Source: Octadecabacter ascidiaceicola
GTDB taxonomy: Bacteria > Pseudomonadota > Alphaproteobacteria > Rhodobacterales > Rhodobacteraceae
Assembly: GCF_900185015.1 (NCBI RefSeq)
Contig: NZ_FXYD01000002.1
Location: 434,001 to 498,000, forward strand
Reading direction: 5' to 3'
Length of the DNA stretch: 64,000 nucleotides
This document shows, piece after piece, positions 28,043 through 29,122 of the stretch (position 1 is the first letter of the stretch; every line of letters starts with the position of its first letter). Position numbers and translations under genes: made by a program. The notes below the pieces were generated by a model, which was given only the letters and a program-made list of their open reading frames with translations, did no database searches and was not told the DNA's origin.

Positions 28043-28065
28043 TGGTGGGCGACCCTGGAATCGAA
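28043..28065. repeat. Left attachment-site copy (distal direct repeat)
   Basis: Identical over 23 bp to the tRNA-Tyr 3' end at 29039-29061 (begins TGGTGGGCGACCCTGGAATC). The match stops after GAA, where the tRNA continues CCAGGC and this copy continues TTCTCC, so this is a tRNA-end duplicate and not a second tRNA. Confidence 0.85.
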
Positions 28066-28132
28066 TTCTCCATTTGGGCTAAGTTCGAAATTTTATCCTT
28101 ATTTGTAAGGTAATATCTGTTTTTTGTGAATC

Positions 28133-28945
28133 TCAATAACCTGCCATTGTATCGATAAGTGTCCGAATTGTATCGAAAACAGTGTAGCTATTCGGGTCCG
28201 GTGAGAGTTCTGATATCTTGCGTTCCAGCTTCTTTTTGATGAAATCGAATTCGTCCTTGTCGTCTGGATCAGAAGGAGCTTCGATCTCTGGGTCAAATCC
28301 CAGTACATAGGCATCAACTAGCCTTACCAAATAGAGTTCAGGCTCCATCGGTAAAGCATCCCTTCTGATCTCTATCTTTGCGCTTTTTACGGCTTCCAGA
28401 TCGAGTGTGTTGATGTATTCGCGAAGACCTGGCAGCCCAGGCAATGAAAGTGCCCTTTTGGGTCGCTCGCCATTGGATGCATCGCGTAGGCGGATAGCAA
28501 TTTGACGCTTGACGACGTCTAGAGATATATTGCCAGAGAAGTCTGCCTCCGCTTCCTGAAGCAACTTCGCGGCGGCTTGCCAGGGGCGGGGAAGGGTTTC
28601 TCGCGGATAAAACTGTTTTTCGCCTGCAAGCCGCGTTGTCATCTCGTAAAACTTGGGAAGTCCCAGATCGGAATAGGCTGCATCTTTTCTTAACTTGGTT
28701 GCTTTGGCCGCAGCCACTCCAGCGGTCCGCAGTTTGTCTGGGTCTCGCATCTCGGCGATAAGAGCGTCGTGTTCCTCAGCCCAAGTCACGACCAACTGAA
28801 CAGCTTTCGAATAACTCACATCACCGCAAGGTAACTGCCAACGTTTAACACCTAAGTGAGCTTGTAAACGCTTTGGAACACGCCGCTGGTAGAAGTACCG
28901 ACCTCGGTCAATCTTCAGGTATGGGATCTTCTCTTCATCACTCAT
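28133..28945 (-). pseudogene. Tyrosine recombinase (phage-type integrase), N-terminal part only
   Basis: The 270-residue product starts like integrases with a DUF6538-type N terminus: YLKIDRGRYFYQRRVPKRLQ followed by LPCGDVSYSKAVQLV. Helical core-binding-like sequence continues, but the R-H-R-Y catalytic domain, expected after about residue 230, is absent. Complete relatives run to roughly 400 residues. The last 15 codons (VFDTIRTLIDTMAGY) are read from the left-end repeats TTGTATCGAWA, so the gene seems to have been fused by a deletion to the far end of the element. The start ATG overlaps a right-end copy of the same repeat, hinting at autoregulation of the ancestral gene. It could still make a DNA-binding protein. 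Confidence 0.72.
28147..28178. repeat. Left pair of 11-bp arm-type repeats
   Basis: TTGTATCGATA at 28147-28157 and TTGTATCGAAA at 28168-28178, same orientation, start-to-start spacing 21 bp (two helical turns), 82 bp inside the left attachment copy. Confidence 0.75.
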
Positions 28946-28976
28946 TGTATCGAAAGTTGCGCTGTTTGTATCGAAA
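28945..28976. repeat. Right pair of 11-bp arm-type repeats
   Basis: TTGTATCGAAA at 28945-28955 and again at 28966-28976, same orientation and same 21-bp spacing as the left pair, 62 bp inside the tRNA-side attachment copy. The first copy overlaps the recombinase start codon. Confidence 0.75.
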
Positions 28977-29038
28977 ATGGGCTATATAGGGTGCATCATA
29001 GCACCACAGGCTCAATAAAAACAGCTATTTGGGTATAA

Positions 29039-29061
29039 TGGTGGGCGACCCTGGAATCGAA
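29039..29061. repeat. Right attachment-site copy (inside tRNA-Tyr)
   Basis: The tRNA-proximal 23-bp direct repeat. It covers the CCA end, acceptor 3' strand and T arm, so integration rebuilt an intact tRNA on this side, as usual for integrases using tRNA 3' ends. Confidence 0.85.
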
Positions 29062-29122
29062 CCAGGCGTGCGTTTCCGCGAGAGAGTTACAGTCTCCTGC
29101 CACACCTTGCGGCCTGACGCCC
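29039..29122 (-). tRNA. tRNA-Tyr (anticodon GTA)
   Basis: The minus strand folds as an 84-nt class II tRNA. The anticodon loop is CTGTAAC (GTA), the anticodon stem GGAGA/TCTCT, the variable arm has GCG-GAAA-CGC, the T arm is CCTGG-TTCGATT-CCAGG, and CCA is encoded. The acceptor stem GGGCGTC/GTCGCCC has a T:T mismatch at pair 6-67. Position 8 reads A where bacteria nearly always have T, and the D loop is short. Either this lineage's tRNA-Tyr is unusual or my alignment of the core is off. Its 3' end serves as the attachment site of the neighbouring element. Confidence 0.9.

Follow-up and report, generated by a model that had tools for sequence, protein, structure and literature searches.

Decayed islands that are still flanked by att sites are an established concept. 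Cis-mobilizable elements (CIMEs), as set out in the available part of PMC5704250, are decayed ICEs or IMEs in which attL and attR are kept and the integration and transfer genes have been lost. Aux3 of pandemic Vibrio cholerae is described in the accessible text of PMC7721734 as a reduced prophage-like element, which keeps its att sites, carries a truncated integrase and shows reduced excision. A further system is KplE1 at argW, whose integrase, IntS, is full-length, functional and autoregulated according to the portion of PMC2951348 that was available. More generally, tyrosine integrases with an arm-binding domain have arm sites (PMC8138268, available part). No paper in the literature searched names DUF6538, and none of the entries listed on tRNA-Tyr islands in Roseobacter concerned a DUF6538-like island family.

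Here, a 996-bp element at a tRNA-Tyr gene of Octadecabacter ascidiaceicola is compared with these systems. It lies in the window, which is the whole 64,000-nucleotide stretch of DNA that was analysed, and it is an extremely short CIME-like case. As in a CIME, both att sites are retained, the functional integration gene has been lost (neither a core-binding nor a catalytic domain is present), the origin is a larger island at a tRNA gene, and the element is a possible target of accretion or trans-mobilisation. A possible difference is that CIMEs are defined as decayed ICEs or IMEs, and 28 proteins (part of the ORFs) of three intact relatives gave no Pfam match to conjugation or mobilisation functions; the element also differs in being cargo-free at 1 kb. 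Aux3 is likewise shrunken, with att sites retained and a truncated integrase, but in the available description it has kept its cargo and its integrase is blunted at the C-terminal tail only. In KplE1, as far as that source describes it, the tRNA, attL and integrase are co-oriented and arm sites lie over the integrase promoter region, an arrangement shared by the window with its putative arm sites; IntS differs in being full length and functional, and autoregulation in the window is hypothetical.

The integration target is a tRNA-Tyr gene (GTA) at 29039..29122 on the minus strand, called by ARAGORN. Its 3' end, including CCA, is the 23-mer TGGTGGGCGACCCTGGAATCGAA, which is present at 29039-29061 and again, 100% identical and 996 bp away, at 28043-28065 (both minus strand). 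The tRNA-proximal copy corresponds to the attL core and is found as the same 23-mer at the left end of the relatives' islands, whereas the distal copy corresponds to the attR core. With up to three mismatches allowed, exactly two copies are found in the window, and none was found in 100 dinucleotide shuffles of it. Thus, the perfect 23-bp repeat of the tRNA-Tyr 3' end that the original prediction had read from the sequence is borne out by exact matching and by ARAGORN. The entire stretch, 28043-29061, occurs once in this genome (G000). The reads are not visible in the assembly data, and a longer island could in principle have been collapsed into 1 kb during assembly. Such an artefact is very improbable, as the stretch is present in that single copy and is internal to a contig whose length is 498 kb or more; the assembly has 11 contigs and is 99.99% complete.

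A comparison of the tRNA-Tyr junction among relatives had been suggested, and it yielded both a matching empty site in a sister species and full-length islands that share the ends. A query made of the tRNA and its flank matched 18 of the 19 genus genomes. When the window flanks were joined without the element and aligned to G407, a single 1105-bp alignment of 79.6% identity resulted, with one att copy and homology that continues through both flanks. The G407 assembly is 79% complete, and its tRNA contains an N gap. As the G407 alignment runs uninterrupted without the element, the 996-bp element is an insertion. G418 also has one att copy; its aligned part next to the tRNA is 668 bp long at 91.9% identity, and that on the far side is only 51 bp long at 86%. 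In addition, the T-rich flank beyond the distal copy, CTTACTCCTTTTTTC on the minus strand, had been proposed to be the original sequence downstream of the tRNA; it does match what directly follows tRNA-Tyr at the empty sites, namely CTTACTCCCCC in G407 and TTTACTCCCC in G418.

Matches to the ORF that lies between the att copies were found in 3 of the 19 genus genomes: G000 itself; G403, where the match (58% over 74 residues) belongs to an island whose integrase is cut off; and G407, where it is on a different contig (38% over 66 residues). The idea that repeat and ORF form a conserved locus shared with element-free relatives finds no support in the 19 genomes, as neither G403 nor G407 has the window form. 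It is also barely conceivable that the distal repeat comes from a second, decayed tRNA or from segmental duplication of the tRNA end, with no element involved. The genus does have partial duplications of tRNA-Tyr (G145, G406), but these are 47-48 bp long and come without arms or integrase, whereas the distal copy in the window is adjoined by sequence that matches island right ends and, unless the G407 contig is misassembled, the empty site lacks the whole segment. The partial copies at L026 (G145) and L052 (G406) extend for ~47-48 bp to the CCA end. Such copies lie 92-212 bp downstream of the tRNA-Tyr gene, with L093 (G277) at 163 bp, and the one at L051 (G413) is more diverged; no arm pair or integrase was seen beside the copies in G145, G406, G277 and G413.

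The longest ORF between the att copies is 28133-28945 on the minus strand and encodes 270 residues. The first ~252 are those of a DUF6538-like tyrosine integrase of ~546 residues, and the last ~18 are foreign to the family. Pfam gave only a sub-threshold DUF6538 match (residues 9-67, 21.4 bits against a cut-off of 27), and no family was found for the ORF at E <= 1 in PHROGs, PADLOC or NCBIfam. The ORF aligns with the first ~252 residues of intact integrases, which are 539-564 residues long when counted from the ATG, and then the alignment stops; against eight intact integrases it ends after SPDPN. In four full integrases scanned with Pfam, matches to the SAM-like core-binding domain start at residue 250-270 (several of these below the cut-off) and the catalytic Phage_integrase domain begins at about residue 360. 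No catalytic-domain match was found within the 996-bp element. The window ORF therefore lacks the core-binding and catalytic domains that define this group of tyrosine recombinases with an AB domain, and it is truncated at ~252 rather than having the ~540-565 residues of a full-length integrase. This agrees with the earlier claim that the only gene between the repeats is a recombinase that ends before its catalytic domain. As both the core-binding and the catalytic domain are missing, the encoded protein is incapable of DNA recombination and the element is unable to excise itself. Judged from its sequence, the element is a defective derivative of the tRNA-Tyr island family and not an intact member.

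The putative deletion junction is placed at 28179..28190 (minus strand), between the stop of the integrase alignment and the start of right-end homology by an arm-like repeat pair, where integrase codon ~252 is joined to the right-hand end. It coincides with a domain border and is just short of the right-hand repeats, and this position could hint at selection. In the predicted structure, residues ~5-250 mostly have pLDDT values of 70-90 and the tail beyond the junction is below 50. A Foldseek search of this model against the PDB returned 0 solved structures at E <= 0.001. The first reading had overlooked that the last ~18 codons of the ORF are not integrase and cross one arm-like repeat pair, and that a pair of ~10-bp repeats is retained at both ends of the element.

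Intact relatives of the element are found at the same target. A contig search gave 10 loci encoding relatives of the ORF, nine of which have a tRNA-Tyr just upstream; the tenth, L023, begins at a contig end. A full-length integrase is encoded at 7 of the 10, and G341 and G156 add two more. Where both ends are on one contig (n = 7), the intact islands span 13.1-21.5 kb and their two att copies share 20 to 23 bp. The islands with a DUF6538-like integrase at tRNA-Tyr come from Lentibacter sp. XHP0401, Yoonia litorea, Roseicyclus mahoneyensis and other Rhodobacteraceae. They share with the window the target, the 23-bp core, the arm repeats and their geometry (Roseicyclus with a variant repeat word) and a homologous integrase N-half, and differ from it in having a full integrase, a size of 13-22 kb and cargo. 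This cargo includes type I restriction with DarT and macro-domain proteins, an NgoMIV-type restriction enzyme, and sugar-nucleotide and ATP-grasp enzymes.

Across the bacterial family, the 20-bp core is present in 281 of 394 genomes and is found twice in 15, four of which (G131, G207, G284, G290) have the copies on different contigs and were left out. The arm-pair pattern matched 8 of 394 genomes; arm pairs in G316 and G026 had no att within the surrounding 12 kb and were dropped as chance occurrences or other elements. The ORF had a match in 9 of 295 family genomes, G000 included, and weak or distant integrase matches were seen in G202, G206, contig 24 of G407, and G408. Among viral contigs, four stretches fitted the pattern of ORF relatives and none of the four was confirmed, and the arm-pair pattern matched one contig. 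The Lentibacter integrase returned 24 plasmid records, none with one place covering at least 80% of the query and all below 60% identity, and 18 phage records, none of which covered at least 80% of it.

The ends of the element carry the family's architecture. At each end, all of the islands with an intact integrase (9/9) have a short repeat pair spaced 21 nt apart. In the set measured together, which does not include G156, the left pair begins 84-98 bp (mode 86) after the start of the left att, and the distance from the right pair to the right att is 109-112 bp. In most islands of this set, the second left repeat coincides with the integrase start codon or adjoins it. In the window, the left pair is at 28966..28976 and 28945..28955, both TTTCGATACAA on the minus strand; the core of the first, TTCGATACA, starts 86 bp after the att start, and the second overlaps the first base of the ATG of the ORF. 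The right pair, on the same strand, is at 28168..28178 (TTTCGATACAA, with the core starting 112 bp before the distal att) and 28147..28157 (TATCGATACAA, one mismatch). These pairs, which may also be written TTCGATACAA, have the 21-nt spacing and the offsets from the att sites (~86 bp inward from the left one, ~111 bp ahead of the right one) that mark the family. The element also shares the family's integration at the 3' end of tRNA-Tyr, flanked by a direct repeat no shorter than 20 bp. By analogy with tyrosine integrases that have an arm-binding domain, the ~10-bp repeats are putative arm sites for the N-terminal domain of the integrase.

The right-hand end segment of the window (28066..28178, minus strand) is similar to other right ends by local alignment. 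Compared with 12 of these, it scored above all 300 mononucleotide shuffles in 10; the exceptions were Roseicyclus, where three shuffles reached the score, and G341, where five did, and the arm pair contributes much of the alignment score. Upstream of the integrase, an inverted repeat, GGTGCTATGATGCACC (28990..29005, minus strand), was seen by eye to be partly conserved in the left-end alignment and is a possible promoter or operator. This GGTGC-TATGAT-GCACC block is a conserved candidate regulatory block; a promoter scan called nothing upstream of the ORF, the block included.

The word of the arm repeat is TTCGATACA in most islands, TTCGCTACA in Roseicyclus, TTCGGTAC in G335, TTCTGTAC in G156 and TTTAG(A/C)CACA in G049, the att distances being about equal in all of these. 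The word thus varies while spacing and att distance are nearly fixed (L027, L030, L033, L034, L094, L096), which makes these islands a possible data set for decoding the specificity of the arm domain. The nearly invariant geometry can also be used to find islands and their remnants from sequence alone.

Taken with the intact 13-22 kb relatives and the empty site, this end architecture upholds the claim that an element entered at tRNA-Tyr and then lost everything except its ends and half of its integrase. The locus is very probably what remains of a genomic island that carried its own integrase, sat at the 3' end of tRNA-Tyr and underwent one large internal deletion. A member of the Rhodobacteraceae island family of 13-22 kb would have entered when its copy of the tRNA 3' end recombined with the chromosomal one. 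One large deletion would then have removed the interior, from about the start of the core-binding domain to ~11 bp before the right-hand arm repeats. With core sites and arm pairs intact, a related integrase supplied in trans might in principle still act on what is left. That a single event made the junction is inferred and not shown, because the closest sampled relatives are 58-63% identical over the N-half and the parent is unsampled.

Further islands of the family have been reduced. The state of the integrase was read at 22 places: it is intact at nine (seven of the original loci, G341 and G156), broken or lost at nine (the window, G403, G049, G294, G151, G335, G081, G187 and the C3 locus of G063), and it runs into a contig end at four (G302, Actibacterium contig 43, G056 and G378). 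Sizes were compared for the 13 elements with both ends on one contig. This leaves out JRDAM, LoktM9, G378 and G302, whose ends are on different contigs; G294, G151, G056 and two G063 loci, where one or no att was found; G197, which has another type of integrase and is bounded on either side by a complete tRNA copy; and the short partial tRNA duplications in G145, G277 and G406. Islands without the catalytic domain measure 1.0 (window), 2.4 (G187), 4.2 (G335), 5.6 (G049), 9.6 (G081) and 10.7 kb (G403), and those with it 13.1, 13.2, 14.3, 15.8, 19.1, 19.9 and 21.5 kb. The sizes of the six defective and seven intact islands do not overlap (exact Mann-Whitney P = 0.0012), in a set that is no random sample, as its members were found by mixed routes (ORF similarity, arm pattern, att pairs), several of them via the features compared. 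In a control search, catalytic parts taken from eight intact integrases gave no match better than E = 0.008 in the six defective islands, versus E below 1e-60 in each of four intact islands. A clean cut in G335 is called into question by some queries (R908, LoktM9), which gave tblastn pieces past its stop, but the catalytic part alone gave only E = 0.43.

The 13 elements are suggestive of a decay series, and the window element, which is the shortest and is cargo-free, likely stands at its short end. Both arm pairs are kept in four of the six defective islands (window, G403, G335, G049), G187 keeps the right pair only, and G081 has only a slightly altered left pair. At a single tRNA, one family thus offers islands that are intact, reduced in part or almost empty, and the remnant in the window is a clean end point for the decay of integrase-borne islands. 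The 2.4-kb island of G187 (L068, 1283-3704, reverse strand) has no integrase, an intact right arm pair and three ORFs, which by eye we take to be an HxlR-type regulator, a nitroreductase and a DJ-1/PfpI-like protein. In the 9.6-kb tRNA-Tyr island of G081 (L097, reverse strand), the integrase is unrecognisable beyond ~14 residues, and a frame near the right end presumably encodes a CueR/MerR-type regulator.

The N-half of the window integrase keeps 39 of the 40 columns that are invariant in the eight intact integrases; when each intact integrase was left out in turn, 40-46 columns were invariant in the remaining seven, and it kept 40 of these. Identities of the window N-half to the four most distant integrases are 0.49, 0.40, 0.33 and 0.36, compared with 0.48, 0.37, 0.32 and 0.36 for Lentibacter. 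The window is below Lentibacter in identity to R908 (0.49 versus 0.55) and G302 (0.63 versus 0.70), and slightly so to the other three. Hence the ORF is little decayed and both att copies are perfect, which would not be expected of a long-dead relic. As there is no clear drift in ORF or sites, the deletion must be of recent date unless selection still acts on some part of the element. A general retention of the N-half in reduced islands was considered and rejected, as the integrase breaks off at widely different points: after residue ~14 in G081, at ~252 in the window and at ~300 in G335, with the gene absent from G187. This scatter speaks against general selection on the N-half, and a recent deletion is therefore favoured over ongoing selection.

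Selection would be expected if the truncated protein were kept as an arm-binding regulator, which binds the repeats at its own start codon and on incoming relatives, represses its own promoter and blocks or poisons recombination at tRNA-Tyr. The confidently modelled N-half with its low-confidence tail, the retained invariant residues and the arm repeat over the start codon would suit such a role, and negative autoregulation is known for IntS and other tRNA-associated integrases whose promoter overlaps attL (PMC2951348, available part). According to the survey in that same source, as far as it could be consulted, autoregulation is not to be expected for most integrases next to tRNA-Tyr genes. 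Moreover, other defective islands (G081, G187) do without the N-half, no conserved 270-residue form was seen elsewhere, and neither the structure search nor the promoter scan gave any hit. A retained regulator is thus highly unlikely, and a recent deletion in a former island remains the preferred reading.

Intact sites would also be expected if the 996-bp segment were a minimal non-autonomous unit, dependent for excision and integration on the integrase that a related island brings into the same cell. Both att copies and all four arm-like repeats at the family geometry are what such a unit would need, and the two arm pairs kept by most islands without a catalytic domain point the same way. Intact sites also fit a recent deletion, however. 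There is no second copy in G000, the ORF matches are as few as given above for genus and family, and no second truncated form with the window junction was seen, although a few matches end at contig ends. Nor is a catalytic half of the DUF6538-like integrase family found in the 19 genus genomes, where the search with the C-terminal half gave nothing above 37% identity. G000 has six Phage_integrase matches, five of them over the family cut-off and none of the window integrase family. A cognate integrase in this genome is unsupported, since the best match there to the C-terminal half of the Lentibacter integrase is only 26% identical, in a 335-residue frame. The genome thus has no visible helper integrase now, and an incoming island could supply one. 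Such a mobile minimal unit is, on balance, unlikely, and the deleted island is the better account of the locus.

It is a little less probable still that the locus is a living minimal element, with complete attP ends and an arm-binding protein that regulates or blocks related islands while hitchhiking on their integrases. If still mobilisable, the element would rank as a very small integrative unit with a tRNA target, and trans-mobilisation would become open to direct testing.

A separate observation concerns G404, a 5.5-Mb genome of the same genus. Here, 15 of 20 matches to the C-terminal half of the integrase are in open frames of 329-334 residues, which suggests a multi-copy, recombinase-borne element.
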